From the NCBI RefSeq assembly GCF_024006985.1, contig NZ_JAMXIB010000005.1:186001-250000 (forward strand): a stretch of DNA of 64,000 nucleotides, written 5' to 3'. How positions within the stretch are numbered: the stretch's first letter is position 1; every line of letters begins with the position of its first letter. The position numbers were made by a program, and so were the translations under genes. This DNA comes from Robiginitalea marina. Its GTDB lineage: Bacteria > Bacteroidota > Bacteroidia > Flavobacteriales > Flavobacteriaceae. Positions 51,533 to 58,962 of the stretch are shown here, one piece after another. The notes below the pieces were generated by a model that did no database searches, was not told the origin of the DNA, and saw nothing but the letters and a program-made list of their open reading frames with translations.

Positions 51533-51754
51533 TTAACGGCTGGCCCCGAGCTTCTTCCCCAGCAGGCGCAGCAGCAAGATCCAGGGCAGCCCGTGGAACG
51601 CCACATCGAACCAGTCCATAACCCCCATGCCCCGGGCCCCGCCCAGGATCCAGCGCAATTTGCCCCATAAGTGGGGTTCCGGGAAGTAGGGGGCCAGCCC
51701 CAGGGTGAGGCAGAGGAAAATCACGATCCTCCAGTCATCGATTACGGATTTCAT
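51533..51754 (-). CDS. Small membrane protein at the end of the trp operon
   Basis: 73 aa with two hydrophobic segments (IVIFLCLTLGLAPYF, LPWILLLRLLG) around a conserved-looking PEPHLWGKLRWILGGARGM and MDWFD stretch. Similar short proteins occur after trpA in other Flavobacteria. ATG at 51754 overlaps the trpA stop (ATGA), so it is translated with the operon. No known function; a link to tryptophan metabolism would be inference. Confidence 0.78.
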   Translation of the reverse strand: MKSVIDDWRIVIFLCLTLGLAPYFPEPHLWGKLRWILGGARGMGVMDWFDVAFHGLPWILLLRLLGKKLGASR

Positions 51755-52542
51755 GGGCGGATTTTTTTAATAAAGGATGGGATCGCTGCTACCCCGTGGG
51801 CGGAAAGCTCCCTGATGAAGGCCGAACCGATGATGGCCCCTTTTGCATGGGCGGTTGCCTGGCCAAAGGTATGGGCGTTGCTGATGCCAAACCCCACGAT
51901 CCTGGGGTTTTTGAGGTCCATGGCCGCAATGCGCCGGAAGTACTCCTGCTGGGCCGGGTCAAAACCTTCCCGGGCCCCGGTGGTACTGGCACTGCTGACC
52001 ATGTAGATAAAGGCATCCGAGGCGTCATCGATTTGCCGGATCCGCGCCTGGGAGGTTTGGGGGGTGATCAGGAAAATCATTTTCAGCCCGTACCGTTCCA
52101 GGATTTCGCGGTATTCCCGCTGGTAGATTTCCAGGGGGAGGTCGGGCAGGATCAGCCCGTCGATCCCCGTTTCGGCACATTGTTTACAGAAGGCTTCGAC
52201 CCCGTACTGCAACACGGGGTTGAAATAACCCATCAGGATCAGGGGCACGTGGATTTCCCTGCGTACCCCTTTGAGTTGTTCAAAAAGGCGGGCGGTCGTC
52301 ATGCCATTTTTCAGGGCAGCCGTGGAGCTTTCCTGTATGGTGGGGCCGTCGGCCAGGGGGTCGCTGAAGGGCAGGCCGATCTCGATCATGTCGACCCCGC
52401 TTTCCTGTAATCGGCGCAGGACGGGAAGCGTATCTTCCAGGGCCGGATACCCCGCCGTGAAATAAATGGATAGCAGGGGCCCTTCCTTGCCGAGGGCTCC
52501 TTTGATCCGGTCCGTGCCGCGGGTAGTGGTTTGGTTTGCCAT
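51751..52542 (-). CDS. trpA: Tryptophan synthase alpha chain
   Basis: 263 aa TIM barrel that splits indole-3-glycerol phosphate to indole. Catalytic Glu in MIEIGLPFSDPLADGPTIQ, second acidic residue in GLILPDLPLE, and loop VSSASTTGAREGF. Three nt after trpB; indole is channelled to the beta chain. Confidence 0.97.
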   Translation of the reverse strand: MANQTTTRGTDRIKGALGKEGPLLSIYFTAGYPALEDTLPVLRRLQESGVDMIEIGLPFSDPLADGPTIQESSTAALKNGMTTARLFEQLKGVRREIHVPLILMGYFNPVLQYGVEAFCKQCAETGIDGLILPDLPLEIYQREYREILERYGLKMIFLITPQTSQARIRQIDDASDAFIYMVSSASTTGAREGFDPAQQEYFRRIAAMDLKNPRIVGFGISNAHTFGQATAHAKGAIIGSAFIRELSAHGVAAIPSFIKKIRP

Positions 52543-52545
52543 GGC

Positions 52546-53730
52546 TTACAGGTTGAAATAGTCGATGTAGGTTTGTAAATCCTTGTCGCCCCGGCCCGAG
52601 AGGTTGATCACCACCACGTCCTGCGGGCCGAAGGGCCGCTTCTCCAGTACGGCAAAGGCGTGGGAGGTCTCAATAGCCGGGATGATTCCTTCCAGGGCGG
52701 CCAGGCGCCGCCCTGCTTCCATAGCCTCGGCATCGGTGATGGAGTGGAATTCCCCCCTTCCGGAAGCGTAGAGGTGGGCGTGCATGGGGCCAATTCCCGG
52801 ATAATCCAGCCCGGCCGAAATCGAATAGGGTTCGGTGATTTGCCCGTCAGCGGTCTGCATCAGCAGGGTTTTGCTCCCGTGGATGATCCCCACCCGGCCC
52901 AGGGCCGAGGTGGCCGCGCTTTCCCCGGTATGCACCCCTTTCCCGGCAGCCTCCACTGCGATAATCCCCACTTCTTCCCGGTCCAGGTAGTGGTAATATG
53001 CCCCGGCCGCATTGCTGCCGCCCCCCACACAGGCGATCAGGTAGTCGGGGGCATCCCGGCCTTCCTTTTCAAGCAGTTGTGCCCCGATTTCTTCCGAAAT
53101 GACGGCCTGGAACCGCGCCACCATGTCGGGGTAGGGATGGGGCCCCACTACCGAGCCAATGATGTAATGGGTGTCTTCGGGGTTGTTGATCCAGTCGCGG
53201 ATGGCTTCGTTGGTGGCATCCTTCAGGGTGCGGCTGCCCGACCGGGCGGGGCGCACCTCAGCCCCGAGGAGTTTCATCCGGGCCACGTTGGGGGCCTGGC
53301 GCGCTATGTCAACTTCCCCCATATAGACCACGCAGGGCAGGCCCATCAGCGCACAAACGGTAGCAGTGGCCACCCCGTGCTGCCCGGCTCCGGTTTCCGC
53401 GATGATCCGCTTTTTGCCCAGCCTGCGGGCCAGCAGGATCTGGCCAATGGTGTTATTCACCTTATGGGCCCCGGTATGGCAGAGATCTTCCCGTTTCAGG
53501 TAAATCCGGCACCCGAAGCGTTCCGACAGCCTGCCGGCAAAGTAAAGGGGGGTGGGCCGCCCCACGTAATCGCGGAGCAGGTGATGGAATTCCTCACTAA
53601 AACCGGGATCGGCCATAATCTCCAGATAGCAGTTTCTGAGTTCCTCCACATTGGGGTAAAGCATTTCAGGGATAAAGGCCCCCCCGAAGGCGCCGTAAAA
53701 CCCGTTTTCATCCACTTGGTACGTTTTCAT
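52546..53730 (-). CDS. trpB: Tryptophan synthase beta chain
   Basis: 394 aa PLP enzyme joining indole and serine. PLP lysine in [13 protein letters not shown], phosphate loop [12 protein letters not shown], and catalytic Glu in [14 protein letters not shown]. Start at ATG 53730 (MKTYQVDEN); overlaps trpF by 4 nt. Type 1 TrpB, as expected with a trpA partner. Confidence 0.97.
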
Positions 53731-54398
53731 AGCTTTTTTTTGTATTTCGTTGTTGTGTCCTCCCCGGGCCCGGAGGTCCAAAAAGGACTTTCCATAAAGG
53801 CCCTCAGGGTTTCGGGGTCCTTCTCCCCGGGCCGGATCTCAAAGCGGCTGTTCACGTCCACGGCATGGCAATAACGCCCAGCGGGGTGCCGCAGGAATTC
53901 CCCAAGTTTGGCGGTGTCAGACAATCCGATACCCCCGCTCAGGAAAAAAAGCTTTTCAAAGGGATACGCTTCCAGCAACCCCCAGTCAAAAGCCACCCCA
54001 TTGCCCCCGGGCAGGGGACCCCGGGTGTCGAAGAGGAAAAAATCGCAGCAGGGCAGGTAGGCCTCCAGGGGGGCGAAATCGAAGCCCGGCCCCAGGGCGA
54101 AAGCCTTGATCAGTTCCTTTTCCCCAAGCCTTAGCTTCAGGGTGTTGCAATATTCGGGCGATTCTTCCCCATGGAGCTGCACGGCATCCAGCTCCAGGGC
54201 AGCGGTCCGCTCCAGGAGGGTCGCCGGGGGTGCATCCACAAAAACCCCAACGCGCCGGATCCCTTCGGGCAGTTGTGGCAGGGAGGACGCCCCGAAATAC
54301 CGGGCACTGCCTTCCCAAAGGATAAAGCCCAGGTAGTCGGGTCCCAGGGCCGCCACCTGGGCCGTGTTGTGTTTCATGCCACAGACTTTCAGTTTCAC
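53727..54398 (-). CDS. trpF: Phosphoribosylanthranilate isomerase
   Basis: 223 aa TIM barrel. N-terminal [23 protein letters not shown] with the catalytic Cys (KVCG), [11 protein letters not shown] and a C-terminal [11 protein letters not shown] phosphate loop. Starts with GTG and overlaps the trpC stop (GTGA). A C-terminal tail after the barrel ([11 protein letters not shown]) is slightly longer than usual. Confidence 0.94.
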
Positions 54399-55180
54399 GG
54401 TTCCAGGGTTTTGACGAATTCAGCCAAAGCAGCCCCGGGGTCGGGCTGCTTCATAAACGATTCCCCCATCAGGAAGCCCTGGTAGCCGAGCTGCTGCAAT
54501 TCCCGAAGCTGGGCCGGGTGGCCCAGGCCACTTTCGGAAACCCTGCCCACTTCCGCGGGGATCAGGGAAATCAGCTCCCGGCTGGTGTCGAGGCTTACTT
54601 CAAAGGTCTTCAGGTTGCGGTTGTTCACCCCGATCAGGTCGGCGCCCCCTTCGAGGGATCGCTCGAGCTCTTCCCGGTCATGCACTTCGAGCAGTACTTC
54701 CATCCCCAGGGCGTGCGCTTCCCCGCAGAGTTCCCGGATTTGTCCCGGGTCGAGGACCGCCGCGATCAGCAGGATGGCATCTGCCCCATAAGCCCTGGCT
54801 TCCAGGACCTGATACGGGTTGATGATGAATTCCTTGCGCAGCAGCGGAAGCTCGGTACTGGCGCGGGCAAGGAGGAGATCGTCGAGGGACCCCCCGAAAT
54901 ATTTTCCGTCCGTCAGCACGGAAATGGCTGCAGCGCCACCCCGCTCGTACCCTTTTACCACGGTTTCCACGCTGCAGCCCTGGTTGATCACCGCCCGGGA
55001 AGGCGAACGCCGCTTGTGTTCCGCAATAATCCCCGATGGCCTCTGGCCGAGGGAGGCGACCAGGGAGCGCGGGTTGCGCTCCATCAACCGGCAGGCCTCC
55101 AGTTGCCCCGTCGGGACCACTGCCTTCCTGAGCGCCACCTCTGCCCTTTTGTCCCTGATGATTTGTTCCAGGATGTTCAT
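54395..55180 (-). CDS. trpC: Indole-3-glycerol phosphate synthase
   Basis: 261 aa TIM barrel. IIAEHKRRSPSRAVI holds the catalytic lysine and SPS loop, LLRKEFIINPYQV the second Lys/Glu, IGVNNRNLKTFEV and VSESGLGH follow. Start ATG 55180 (MNILEQIIRDK) after the trpD stop (10-nt gap); the frame stays open upstream only as a shadow of trpD. Confidence 0.97.
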   Translation of the reverse strand: MNILEQIIRDKRAEVALRKAVVPTGQLEACRLMERNPRSLVASLGQRPSGIIAEHKRRSPSRAVINQGCSVETVVKGYERGGAAAISVLTDGKYFGGSLDDLLLARASTELPLLRKEFIINPYQVLEARAYGADAILLIAAVLDPGQIRELCGEAHALGMEVLLEVHDREELERSLEGGADLIGVNNRNLKTFEVSLDTSRELISLIPAEVGRVSESGLGHPAQLRELQQLGYQGFLMGESFMKQPDPGAALAEFVKTLEP

Positions 55181-55190
55181 GGGTTGTTTT

Positions 55191-56192
55191 TTAAGGGTTG
55201 TCGGTACTGAGGGTTTGCAACTCCCGGAATGCCGCAAGGGCCCGGCCACTGGCCAGGGCTTCCCGGGCCCTGTCGGCCCCTTCCCTGGCCGGGCACCCCG
55301 TGGCGGTCGAAATGGCCATGCCTGCGTTGGCGCACACCACCGCCTGTTGAGCCTCTGTCCCCCTGCCCTGGAGTACCGAAAGGAAAATTCGGGCGGCTTC
55401 CTCCACGCTCTCCCCCCCGTAAATGGCAGCAGGTTCCAGGGCCTGCAGCCCGAAATCCTCCGGGTGCAGCACCGCCTCCAGGGAATTCCCGAAAACTTTG
55501 GTAGGCCCGGTGAGGGAGATTTCGTCGTACCCGTCCAGCCCGTGGAGGATGCTGTAGGTCTTGTCCGTATTCTGGTAGAGGTATCCGTACATGCGCGCCA
55601 GTTCCAGGTTAAAGACCCCAACCATTTGCAGCCTCGGAAAGGCAGGGTTCACCATGGGGCCCAGCATGTTGAAGAAGGTTTTCACCCCGAGCTCGCGCCG
55701 TATCGGGGCCACCTGTTTCATGGCCGGGTGGAAAAGGGGGGCGTGCAGGACGCAGATGCCGGCCCGGTCGAGGCAGCGTTTTAAAAAATCTGCCTCTGCG
55801 GAAAACCGGATTCCCAGGAACTCCAGTACATTGCTGCTGCCGCAGGCGGAAGAAACCCCGTAATTTCCGTGCTTGGCCACGGGCACGCCGGCCCCGGCAC
55901 AGACAAAGGAGGCAAGGGTGGAAATATTGAAGGTGTTTTTGCCATCCCCCCCGGTCCCGCAAAGGTCAATGGGGTCGAATTCCGAAAGGTCCACGGCGTG
56001 GCAGAGCTCCAGGAGGGCATCCCGGAAGCCTTCCAGTTCCCCGGTGGCCACGCTGCGCATCATATATACGGTCAGGAAGGCAGCCATCTCGCTGGGGTTA
56101 TAGCTCCCGGTAGCCATCCGGATCATGACCTGCCGGGACTCTTCCCGGCTGAGCAACTGGTGGCCGATCAGTTTGTTCAGGATATCTTTCAT
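55191..56192 (-). CDS. trpD: Anthranilate phosphoribosyltransferase
   Basis: 333 aa. PRPP-binding glycine loop CGTGGDGKNTFNIST, GNYGVSSACGSSNVLE and HAPLFHPAMKQVAPIRRELG (anthranilate tunnel). Overlaps trpG by 4 nt (ATGA). Not fused to trpG. Confidence 0.97.
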   Translation of the reverse strand: MKDILNKLIGHQLLSREESRQVMIRMATGSYNPSEMAAFLTVYMMRSVATGELEGFRDALLELCHAVDLSEFDPIDLCGTGGDGKNTFNISTLASFVCAGAGVPVAKHGNYGVSSACGSSNVLEFLGIRFSAEADFLKRCLDRAGICVLHAPLFHPAMKQVAPIRRELGVKTFFNMLGPMVNPAFPRLQMVGVFNLELARMYGYLYQNTDKTYSILHGLDGYDEISLTGPTKVFGNSLEAVLHPEDFGLQALEPAAIYGGESVEEAARIFLSVLQGRGTEAQQAVVCANAGMAISTATGCPAREGADRAREALASGRALAAFRELQTLSTDNP

Positions 56193-56758
56193 TCCGTTTC
56201 GTTTAGCCAGTTGGAAAGGATTTGTTTTCCCTGGGGGGTCAGTACTGATTCGGGATGGTACTGCACGGCATGCACATTGTAATCCCGGTGGCGGAGCGAC
56301 ATGACCTCCCCTTGCCTGTCACGGGCCGTAACCTCCAGGCAGGGGGGCAGATCGGGATGCACTACCCAGGAATGGTAACGACCCACCTCGATTTCTTCGG
56401 GCAGCCCGCGGTACAGGACCTCATCCCCTAAGAGCCGGATTTGGGTGGCCACCCCGTGGTAGACCTGTTGCAGGTTCACCAGGCGCCCACCGAAGACCTC
56501 GGCGATAGCCTGTTGGCCCAGGCAGACCCCGAAAATCCGTTTATCCGGGGCAAACTTCCTGATGATTTCCTTCAGCAGCCCGGCTTCATCTGGGATTCCC
56601 GGGCCGGGTGACAGTACAAGGTGGTCGAAGCCGGCCACCTCCTCCAGGCCGATCCGGTCATTCCGGCGGACGGTTACCCCAGCCCCCAGTTCCTCCAGAA
56701 GGTGGACCAGGTTGTACGTAAAACTGTCGTAATTGTCGATGACCAGGACCTTTTTCAT
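56189..56758 (-). CDS. trpG: Anthranilate synthase component II (glutamine amidotransferase)
   Basis: 189 aa class I glutaminase supplying ammonia to TrpE. Oxyanion loop LSPGPGIPDEAG, nucleophile Cys in FGVCLGQQAIAE, and His-Glu in HAVQYHPESVLT. May be shared with folate synthesis as PabA; no pabB in this window. 2 nt after trpE. Confidence 0.96.
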   Translation of the reverse strand: MKKVLVIDNYDSFTYNLVHLLEELGAGVTVRRNDRIGLEEVAGFDHLVLSPGPGIPDEAGLLKEIIRKFAPDKRIFGVCLGQQAIAEVFGGRLVNLQQVYHGVATQIRLLGDEVLYRGLPEEIEVGRYHSWVVHPDLPPCLEVTARDRQGEVMSLRHRDYNVHAVQYHPESVLTPQGKQILSNWLNETE

Positions 56759-56760
56759 GA

Positions 56761-58158
56761 TCAGAGGGATTCGGCGATTTCCAGGGCCTTGTTAAGGGCC
56801 CCCAATTTGTTGTAGGTCTCCTGCAATTCCGCTTCAGGGTCCGAGGCGGCTACCAGGCCGGCACCGGCCTGGTAGAATAGCCGGTGGTTTTTGCTCAGGA
56901 AGGTCCTGATCATGATGGCATGGTTGAAATCGCCGTCAAACGCCATGAAGCCAATGGCCCCCCCGTAATAGTTGCGGCTGGTTTTTTCGTATTGTTCGAT
57001 CAGCTGCATGGCCCGGTGCTTCGGGGCCCCGCTCAGGGTTCCCGCAGGGAAGGTGTCGGCCACCACTTTCATGGTGGGCACCCCTTCCTTGACCTGCCCG
57101 GTAACTTTGGAGACCAGGTGGATCACATGGGAGAAGTACTGCACTTCCCGGAAAGTTTCCACCTGCACCATGTTCCCGTTGCGGCTCAGGTCATTGCGAG
57201 CCAGGTCGACCAGCATGACGTGTTCGCTGTTTTCTTTCCGGTCGGCCGCGAGCCTTCGGGCCAGTTCGGCGTCTTCCTCATCGTTGCCGGTGCGCCGGAA
57301 GGTCCCGGCGATGGGATGGATTTCGGCCTTCCCTTTTTTGACAACCAGCTGGGCTTCCGGGGAGCTGCCGAAGATCCTGAAATCCCCGTAATCGAAATAG
57401 AACAGGTAGGGGGAGGGGTTGATCGACCGAAGGGCCCTGTAGACATTGAAATCGTCGCCCCTGAATTGCTGTGAAAACCGCCGTGAAAGGACCAGTTGGA
57501 AGACGTCCCCCCGGGCGCAGTGTTTTTTGGCCAGTTCCACCTGGGCGAGGAAATCGGCATCCTCCAGGTTAGACTCCCGGGCTCCCTCCCTTTGGAACCT
57601 GTAGGTGGCAAACGTCTGCACCGCAAGCAGCTGCTCCAGTTCGGTAAGGTTATCGAGCCCATCGTAGCTGTGGGAAAAGAGGTAGGCCTCATTTTTGAAG
57701 TGGTCGATGGCGATGACGTTTTGGTAGACTGCATAAATCAGGTCCGGGATCTCCGGGGAACCGGGCTTTTTTCCGATGGCAATGTCCTCGAAATAGCGTA
57801 CGGCATCATACGACAGGTATCCGAAGAGCCCGTTGTTGATGAATTTGAACCCGTGGTCCTCTACGCGGAAGTTCCCCGCAAAGCGGTCGATTTCCATGGC
57901 CAGGTCGGTCCCCGGCCCAAGGGCCCGGGTTTCGGACCGGCCGTCGGGAAAGGCTTCCACAAGGGTATCGCAATGCACTCGGATGGAGGCAATGGGGTTG
58001 CAGCAGATATAGGAAAAGGAATTGTCGTTGGCGTGGTAGTCGCTGCTCTCCAGCAAAATGCTGCCAGGGAACCGGTCGCGCACGCGCAGGTAGACGCTTA
58101 CCGGCGTGATGGTGTCGGCCAGGATTTTCTTATATCGGGTCCTAAGGGCGTAGCTCAT
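56761..58158 (-). CDS. trpE: Anthranilate synthase component I
   Basis: 465 aa chorismate-using enzyme, first of the pathway. N-terminal LLESSDYHANDNSFSYI contains the LLESxx Trp-feedback site; C-terminal chorismate-binding domain has HPIAGTFRRTGNDEEDA, ENSEHVMLVDLARNDL and AGAGLVAASDPEAELQET. ATG at 58158, directly after an attenuator, so expression is likely set by Trp supply. The order E-G-D-C-F-B-A gives a complete biosynthetic set with all joints within 11 nt. Confidence 0.97.
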   Translation of the reverse strand: MSYALRTRYKKILADTITPVSVYLRVRDRFPGSILLESSDYHANDNSFSYICCNPIASIRVHCDTLVEAFPDGRSETRALGPGTDLAMEIDRFAGNFRVEDHGFKFINNGLFGYLSYDAVRYFEDIAIGKKPGSPEIPDLIYAVYQNVIAIDHFKNEAYLFSHSYDGLDNLTELEQLLAVQTFATYRFQREGARESNLEDADFLAQVELAKKHCARGDVFQLVLSRRFSQQFRGDDFNVYRALRSINPSPYLFYFDYGDFRIFGSSPEAQLVVKKGKAEIHPIAGTFRRTGNDEEDAELARRLAADRKENSEHVMLVDLARNDLSRNGNMVQVETFREVQYFSHVIHLVSKVTGQVKEGVPTMKVVADTFPAGTLSGAPKHRAMQLIEQYEKTSRNYYGGAIGFMAFDGDFNHAIMIRTFLSKNHRLFYQAGAGLVAASDPEAELQETYNKLGALNKALEIAESL

Positions 58159-58170
58159 GGCTGTGGGTGT

Positions 58171-58208
58171 TAAATAAGAAAAGGCTTGTCGTGACAGACA
58201 AGCCTTTT
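58171..58208 (-). terminator. trp attenuator terminator
   Basis: Minus strand: 12-bp perfect stem AAAAGGCTTGTC/GACAAGCCTTTT (58197-58208 with 58179-58190), 6-nt loop, then CTTATTTA. It lies between the leader ORF and trpE, 20 nt before the trpE ATG. Its 5' arm and loop can alternatively pair with the leader ORF's stop-codon region. Confidence 0.88.
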
Positions 58209-58240
58209 ATATCAGATACAAACTGGGCTTAGGTCACGAC
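58188..58240 (-). promoter_or_regulatory. Antiterminator pairing region of the trp leader
   Basis: GTCGTGAC at 58233-58240 (over the leader stop codon) is complementary over 8 bp to GTCACGAC at 58188-58195 (terminator loop and 3' arm). AAGCC at 58226-58230 is complementary to GGCTT at 58200-58204 (terminator 5' arm). The two helices are collinear, separated by 2 and 4 nt, and exclude the terminator. A ribosome at the leader stop would cover both upstream strands; one stalled at the Trp codons would leave them free. Confidence 0.75.
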
Positions 58241-58290
58241 CGTAGGGGTCCTGAATTCCACCACCAGCTAGTATGGGTTGTTGTATTCAT
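58234..58290 (-). CDS. trpL: trp operon leader peptide with three Trp codons
   Basis: 18 codons, ATG at 58290, TGA at 58234-58236, reading MNTTTHTSWWWNSGPLRS. Three consecutive TGG codons (58258-58266) sit about 20 nt before the antiterminator strand. No ribosome-binding site precedes it; the -7 element ends 7 nt before the ATG, so the mRNA may be leaderless. Role: ribosome position reports charged tRNA-Trp. Its placement between promoter and terminator makes a chance ORF very unlikely. Confidence 0.85.
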   Translation of the reverse strand: MNTTTHTSWWWNSGPLRS

Positions 58291-58297
58291 TGCGGTC

Positions 58298-58328
58298 CAA
58301 ATATAGGAAGGAAAAAACCTCCGCGCAA
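58298..58328 (-). promoter_or_regulatory. Promoter of the trp operon
   Basis: Minus strand: TTG (58326-58328), 20-nt spacer, TATATTTG (58298-58305). Matches the Bacteroidetes consensus. The expected start site is at or within a few nt of the leader ATG at 58290. Confidence 0.75.
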
Positions 58329-58340
58329 CAACAGGGCATA

Positions 58341-58368
58341 AAAAAACACCGGGAATTCCCGGTGTTTT
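58341..58368 (-). terminator. Intrinsic terminator after the YceI gene
   Basis: 11-bp perfect stem AAAACACCGGG/CCCGGTGTTTT (58343-58353 with 58358-58368), AATT loop, T-rich flank on both strands. 18 nt past the YceI stop and just upstream of the trp promoter, insulating the two units. Confidence 0.88.
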
Positions 58369-58386: not shown

Positions 58387-58962
58387 CTAGAATTCGAGGT
58401 CCACTACAAGGTCGAACTCATCGTAGATGGTTTTGTCACCCAGGTTTTCAAAAAAGCTTCCCGACCCGTAACGCACATTGTACTGGGCGCGGTCCACCTT
58501 TACCGTGGCGGTTGCCTTGCTTCCGTACACGGAAACATCGAAGGTGATGGGCTTGGTGATTCCCTTGATGGTCAGGTCTCCGGTGACTTCGTAGGAGTTC
58601 TTGCCGGTAGCCTTCACACTGGTGAAGACCAGGGTAGAGGAGGGGTGCGATTCCACGGAGAAGAAATCATCGGATTTCAGGTGTCCTTCCAGTTTTTGGC
58701 GGGATTCCCCTTCCAGGTCGGTAGCAATCAGGGTGGTCATGTCCACCTCGAATTCCCCGCCGGTAAGCTGGCCTTCTTCGAAAAGCAGCGCCCCCGACTT
58801 CAGGGCCACGGTACCCGTGTGGGAACCGGTCACTTTGTAGGCTTTCCATGTTACGGTGCTTTCGCCGGCCTTTACTTCCTTCCTTTCCACCTCAACGGGT
58901 TCAGTAGCGGATACGCCGGAGGCCACAAGGGCAAATGCAATGGTAAAAATAGAACGTTTCAT
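58387..58962 (-). CDS. YceI-family periplasmic protein
   Basis: 191 aa, signal peptide (cut near VSA-TEP) and a YceI lipocalin-like barrel: KAYKVTGSHTGTVALKSG, GHLKSDDFFSVESHPSSTLVF and the C-terminal KTIYDEFDLVVDLEF. Known relatives bind polyisoprenoids or ubiquinone-like lipids. Start ATG 58962 (MKRSIF); the codon two triplets earlier is TTG. Third gene of the marR-nitroreductase-yceI unit, a common flavobacterial arrangement. Confidence 0.93.
   Translation of the reverse strand: MKRSIFTIAFALVASGVSATEPVEVERKEVKAGESTVTWKAYKVTGSHTGTVALKSGALLFEEGQLTGGEFEVDMTTLIATDLEGESRQKLEGHLKSDDFFSVESHPSSTLVFTSVKATGKNSYEVTGDLTIKGITKPITFDVSVYGSKATATVKVDRAQYNVRYGSGSFFENLGDKTIYDEFDLVVDLEF

Follow-up and report, generated by a model that had tools for sequence, protein, structure and literature searches.

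A probable ribosome-mediated trp attenuator in Robiginitalea marina, orthologous to the Bacteroid-trp leaders

Known trp attenuators and the R. marina locus

The trp attenuator of E. coli, as described by Yanofsky, combines tandem Trp codons in the leader with an antiterminator and a terminator that compete with each other, and terminates by default when the leader is not translated. The leader preceding trpE in Robiginitalea marina, identified in a stretch of 64,000 nucleotides (the window), has the same tandem Trp codons, the same competition between antiterminator and terminator in predicted folds and, in the mechanism proposed below, the same default. In contrast to E. coli, the 5' strand of the R. 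marina antiterminator extends over the leader stop codon and finds its partner in the loop and 3' arm of the terminator, the spacing of the promoter box would leave hardly any 5' UTR, and no TrpR match is present in the genome.

For the Bacteroidetes, an element named Bacteroid-trp is listed in Table 1 of Weinberg et al., 2010 (PMC2864571), and is modeled in Rfam as RF01692. Bacteroid-trp is cited upstream of the trp operon in Flavobacterium psychrophilum (PMC6414381), and strong clues for leader-peptide attenuation have been reported upstream of amino-acid operons in the same organism (PMC9723704). The R. marina leader, from another genus, is similar on both counts; the antiterminator and the geometry of the stop codon were not found described for F. 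psychrophilum in the available parts of these two reports. The remark of the initial annotation that such an arrangement might not have been described for Flavobacteria fails for the element as such, given RF01692 and the three publications (PMC2864571, PMC6414381, PMC9723704). This kind of element has been known since 2010, and the R. marina element is real and largely ordinary. Three refinements were not found in the literature searched, namely the evidence for the antiterminator (which may be described in the supplement of PMC2864571), a leader stop codon that slides around it, and the near-leaderless spacing of the trp leader. With an antiterminator that is absent from the public model, the locus offers a clean and testable case of trp attenuation in the Flavobacteriaceae.

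The operon trpE-trpG-trpD-trpC-trpF-trpB-trpA occupies 51751-58158 on the minus strand, to which all features below also belong. Its genes were assigned from ORFs and their best NCBIfam matches; TrpG, TrpD, TrpC, TrpB and TrpA pass the curated NCBIfam cut-offs, and the matches of TrpE and TrpF fall short of theirs. Upstream of the trp unit, on the same strand, lies a YceI-like gene (Pfam match) that ends at 58387. Between the two, at 58341-58366, a terminator-like inverted repeat with a T run was seen by eye; it is absent from the output of the terminator scan that returned the trp leader terminator.

RF01692 matches 58310-58197 with 48.4 bits (E-value 5.2e-5 to 1.3e-4), 0.6 bits below its gathering score of 49. 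Among the loci of the same genus (L002-L010) only L010 passes the cut-off, with 52.8 bits, and L002-L009 miss it. More distant relatives score above it at the same locus (L043 72.0, L066 66.8 and L029 61.2 bits), and the window leader aligns with them end to end. Judged from these alignments, the window leader is a sub-threshold orthologue of the RF01692 members, though not itself a member by Rfam's rule. It shares with them the position before Bacteroidota trp genes, a leader ORF with Trp codons, a protector stem across these codons, and the terminator 5' arm; its RF01692 alignment flags eight positions as non-standard pairs. The structure line of RF01692 contains the protector stem only, without an antiterminator, and the model extends no further than the terminator 5' arm. 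In this the window differs, as it carries a predicted antiterminator outside the Rfam structure.

Across the class, RF01692 passes its cut-off in 14 of 296 genomes, and in 20 of 296 at an E-value up to 0.001 (strict filters); a search for trpE at an E-value up to 1e-80 was positive in 37 of 119 class genomes. A Trp leader was present in 26 of 33 class loci outside the family (see below), which, set against 14 of 296 genomes, suggests that the element is undercounted by the Rfam model, with the reservation that the two counts are not directly comparable. As its cut-off misses the window and eight of the nine other loci of the genus, the model may have to be reseeded.

Leader peptide and terminator

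The leader peptide ORF at 58234-58290 has 18 codons (MNTTTHTSWWWNSGPLRS*), with TGG TGG TGG at 58266-58258 and a TGA stop codon at 58236-58234, exactly where the initial annotation had placed an 18-codon ORF with three tandem Trp codons. It is followed by an intrinsic terminator at 58171-58208, likewise present as had been claimed and recovered both by the terminator scan and by folding, which consists of a 12-bp stem (58208-58197 with 58190-58179), a 6-nt loop TGTCAC and the T-rich tail CTTATTT. The segment 58171-58221 folds as the terminator at -17.9 kcal/mol, and none of 200 shuffles was as stable. The pattern GGCYTGTC-N(2-8)-CACGACARGCC has a single occurrence in the genome and is thus not a general terminator of R. 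marina. A leader ORF with tandem Trp codons before the trp genes, and a terminator between this ORF and the first gene, are what the mechanistic class of ribosome-mediated attenuators leads one to expect.

Conservation was assessed at three levels. The close set comprises the trpE loci of 10 genomes of the genus (R. marina included) and the best 80 of 518 related loci on species-representative contigs, and therefore represents the closest relatives; the two sources overlap, and the 90 loci yield 85 distinct leaders, the window included. The family survey covered 80 genomes with trpE in 76, R. marina among them, and the 75 others were counted. The third level consists of class loci outside the family.

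A tandem-Trp leader ORF is found at all 90 close trpE loci (the genus and the best 80 of 518). In the family survey, an ORF of 7-35 codons starting with ATG and containing WW is located upstream of trpE in 71 of 75 loci (shuffled mean 0.5), and a WWW leader in 63 of 75 (shuffled mean 0.0); in the alignment, few parts of the leader are as well conserved as the Trp run. For class loci outside the family, a WW or WxW leader is present in 26 of 33 (shuffled mean 1.25). Conservation of the Trp-codon ORF in relatives, put forward as a check in the initial annotation, is therefore observed (90/90 close and 71/75 family loci). The ORF test returned no leader for L190, L206, L226 and L234 among the 75 family loci, nor for L126, L129, L130, L131, L138, L149 and L152 among the 37 loci of the class survey; the upstream sequence of L131 and L138 amounts to only 24 and 163 nt, and L149 belongs to the same genome as L159, whose leader sits further up. 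In five class loci (L127, L134, L136, L125 and L140) a single residue separates the leader's Trp codons (WRW, WCW, WLW), so that they are not in tandem.

A terminator-like hairpin follows every leader found (90/90 close, 71/71 family and 30/30 class), in counts made without a shuffle control. Within the terminator stem, 8 of 12 pairs are invariant among 84 close sequences and 3 of 12 have changed on both sides.

Antiterminator, protector stem and predicted switch

The antiterminator 5' strand (58226-58240) is formed by GTCGTGAC at 58240-58233, which overlaps the leader stop codon, and AAGCC at 58230-58226. Its 3' strand (58188-58204) lies inside the terminator, with GGCTT at 58204-58200 and GTCACGAC at 58195-58188. 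GTCGTGAC is the reverse complement of GTCACGAC, and AAGCC that of GGCTT. The segment 58171-58240 folds as the antiterminator at -23.0 kcal/mol, a stability reached by none of 200 shuffles. Sequence and fold thereby bear out the earlier proposal that the leader stop region pairs with the terminator loop and 3' arm, and AAGCC with GGCTT, in two collinear helices.

A third helix, which the initial annotation did not mention, is formed by 58274-58264 and 58226-58216 and is the one modeled by Rfam. Fold and RF01692 alignment place its 5' arm at 58264-58274, reaching into the first Trp codon, and its 3' arm at 58216-58226. Complementarity of the two protector arms is weak, exceeding 95% of shuffles in only 19 of 84 close and 20 of 64 family sequences. 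As the close alignment misplaces the 3' arm in the window's genus (10 rows) relative to the rest, protector pairs were counted on the other 74 rows.

Folding of the window leader in different ribosome positions predicts a classical three-state attenuator logic. With a ribosome on the last Trp codon (58247-58171 free), the minimum-energy fold is the antiterminator, even at full length; with a ribosome at the stop codon (58223-58171 free) it is the terminator; and the naked leader folds into the protector stem plus the terminator. The mutually exclusive antiterminator expected of this class of attenuators is thus predicted for the window, and for most relatives only in a co-transcriptional model. 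At full-length equilibrium in the Trp-stalled state, the terminator loses its dominance in only 10 of 84 close, 1 of 67 family and 1 of 28 class sequences. Six of these ten flipping close sequences are loci of the window's genus, in which 6 of 10 loci flip (L025 standing for L008). A simple equilibrium switch was therefore rejected as the general model, with the terminator winning in the full-length RNA of most relatives, and was kept for the window and five further loci of its genus; in the other relatives the order of folding during transcription must matter.

Such an order was approximated with a state model, in which the RNA is visible from the Trp-stalled ribosome to 2 nt past the antiterminator helix and a helix is called at P>0.5. 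In the stalled state the antiterminator helix is predicted in all 84 close sequences and in 63 of 64 from the family, figures that are partly by construction because the helix was chosen as the best one; the informative contrast is that with the RNA without a ribosome, for which the helix is predicted in 27 of 84 close and 26 of 64 family sequences. Shuffling of the Trp-codon arm raises these ribosome-free counts to 64 of 84 close and 41 of 64 family sequences. In this model, the Trp-codon arm thus acts as a protector.

Together, these observations lead us to read the locus, with a probability of roughly 0.94, as an attenuator that controls transcription of the trp operon through the ribosome and is orthologous to the Bacteroid-trp leaders of Rfam. 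This agrees with the initial annotation, which had proposed an attenuator based on ribosome stalling, and is supported by the conservation of ORF and pairing and by the folds predicted for the window in the stalled and stop states. The leader and its switchable terminator probably turn on the trp genes only when tryptophan is short. Transcription would start just before the leader ATG. When charged tRNA-Trp is in supply, the ribosome would run to the TGA codon and cover the antiterminator 5' strand (58240-58226), allowing the terminator to form about 120 nt into the transcript. When tryptophan is scarce, the ribosome would stall on the three UGG codons and break the protector stem. The ribosome footprint extends about 12 nt beyond the A site, which would place the leading edge of the stalled ribosome at about 58247 and leave 58240 onward free. 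The leader-stop region could then pair with the terminator loop and 3' arm as these emerge, and with the antiterminator formed, RNA polymerase would read through into trpEGDCFBA. Without translation, the protector stem would form and termination would be the default.

Another reading retains the ribosome but gives it the protector stem as its only switch, as in the Rfam structure, so that CGTGA:TCACG would be a by-product of conservation and there would be no antiterminator. Besides the Rfam model, which contains the protector stem alone, the close set leaves room for it. The core CGTGA:TCACG pairs in all 84 distinct close sequences (the genus and the best 80 of 518), two of its five pairs being G-U in two sequences each, and the second helix is kept in 84.5% of cells in these sequences. 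The outer antiterminator pairs are less kept: pair 51-115 is found in 44 of 84 close sequences and pair 58-108 in 12 of 84, which include all 10 rows from the genus of the window. In a set that is nearly invariant in sequence, antiterminator covariation is consequently weak; its double changes do not exceed shuffles (121 of 500 reach the same level), and RNAalifold on the close alignment reports the terminator only and no antiterminator. Complementarity between the leader and the terminator loop plus 3' arm ranks in the top 5% against 100 dinucleotide shuffles in 73 of 84 close and 53 of 67 family sequences, the latter arguing against a by-product, but in only 8 of 28 class sequences, so that it is not demonstrated for most leaders outside the family. 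As the double changes in the close set are not significant, the case for the antiterminator rests on a word kept across reading frames and on changes in distant loci. CGTGA or a near form is part of the best leader-loop helix in 142 of the 151 distinct sequences from the close set and the family. The stop codon falls within this CGTGA-like word in 107 of the 142; in 17 it precedes the word by 6-12 nt, and in 18 it follows at 3-5 nt. All three reading frames are represented among the occurrences of the word (124, 16 and 2). Words and loops were picked after viewing the sequences, and these counts are descriptive and not a test. That the word is kept while the stop codon slides around it indicates that it is kept as RNA. 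Of the remaining sequences, L214, L230 and L232 have no helix of at least 5 pairs, and L220, L227, L228, L229, L231 and L233 have a helix without the word. In other families, word and loop are seen by eye to change together: L103, L105, L106 and L116 have CGTAA with a TTGC or TTAC loop, L111 has CGTGAG with TTAC through one G-U, and L107 combines CGTAA with CTGC in a poorer pairing; L210, from the same family as the window, has CGCAA with TTGC. The covarying antiterminator and terminator pairs for which the initial annotation had suggested looking are thus not seen as an excess of double changes in the close set, and do appear as joint changes of word and loop in distant loci. In view of the sliding stop codon, these joint changes (L103, L105, L106, L116, L111 and L210) and the complementarity within the family, we regard a switch without antiterminator as improbable.

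Other explanations dispense with the stalled ribosome. Control of trp genes by TRAP or TrpR is known in bacteria, and the terminator could be conditional with a TRAP- or TrpR-like protein, or free tryptophan, as the sensor, leaving the leader ORF incidental. No match to TrpR (PF01371) or TRAP (PF02081) was found in the R. marina genome in searches whose positive controls did match, and the locus shows no riboswitch match and no T-box match by covariance model up to an E-value of 10 in 701 bases around the leader. These alternatives therefore have no visible support, and an incidental ORF is at odds with a Trp run that ranks with the best conserved parts of the leader; we consider a sensor of this type very unlikely. 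That the terminator is constitutive, or the whole a decayed relic without regulation, is hardly credible for a leader that is conserved across family and class against shuffles. As a separate observation on an individual locus, the leader ORF of L090 ends six bases early with TGA and the TCGTGAG word is retained after the stop, a further instance of a stop codon that shifts relative to the antiterminator.

Promoter spacing and position of the leader

The initial annotation described a consensus promoter upstream of the leader. Its -7 box, TATATTTG at 58298-58305, stands as described, fits the phylum consensus TAnnTTTG and ends 7 nt before the leader ATG. The second element is present at 58326-58328 as TTG, a partial match to the TTTG of the phylum and weak alone, and is thus at most a possible -33 element; TTTG or TTG at about this spacing was also seen by eye in a number of relatives.

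In 86 of the 90 close loci (the genus and the best 80 of 518), the distance from the end of the -7 box to the leader ATG is 4-8 nt, where 1.4 of 90 would be expected by chance from the density of TAnnTTTG in the same upstream sequences, with duplicates included in the 90. Within the family, a gap of up to 8 nt is found in only 22 of 71 loci; it is 9-38 nt in 45, and for the other 4 no strict box was found within 50 nt. The name "-7" implies that transcription starts a few bases downstream of the box, and the clade's leader mRNA would then have almost no 5' UTR. The promoter spacing thus suggests that this mRNA is nearly leaderless in the clade around R. marina.

Leaderless mRNAs are a minority in the phylum: they amount to 5.5% in F. 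psychrophilum (PMC9723704), and for B. thetaiotaomicron about 3.7% of 5' UTRs have been published as shorter than 10 nt. In Sinorhizobium meliloti, trpL/rnTrpL is reported to be a trp attenuator RNA that begins directly with the leader ATG (PMC7298713). The R. marina leader is probably similar in being nearly leaderless; in contrast, S. meliloti belongs to another phylum, and its leaderlessness is reported as such, whereas for R. marina we infer it from promoter spacing. Combining both refinements, we lean towards a model in which the attenuator RNA of this clade starts on the leader ATG or only a few bases from it, with the ribosome destined to stall loading directly on the 5' end in a phylum without Shine-Dalgarno signals, and in which the antiterminator is an RNA word, TCGTGA, that is maintained in evolution while the position of the leader stop shifts between 12 nt upstream and 5 nt downstream of this word. 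If true, the near-leaderless start would be useful for studying initiation without Shine-Dalgarno signals.

The distance between leader and trpE varies among the loci. The leader lies within 400 nt of trpE in 84 of the close loci, and in the other 6 its stop codon is 433-447 nt upstream. In one of these, L034, an ORF of 94 aa with a GIY-YIG domain (PF01541, a search run on L034 only) is located at 1177-1461, between the trp leader terminator and trpE, and would by this position be under control of the attenuator; L030, L041, L042, L053 and L060, with leaders 433-447 nt upstream, have a stretch that by eye resembles that of L034. In L153 and L159, from other families of the class, the Trp leader is found about 1.3 kb upstream of trpE, which leaves room for another gene, and the attenuator may there head an operon of different gene order.
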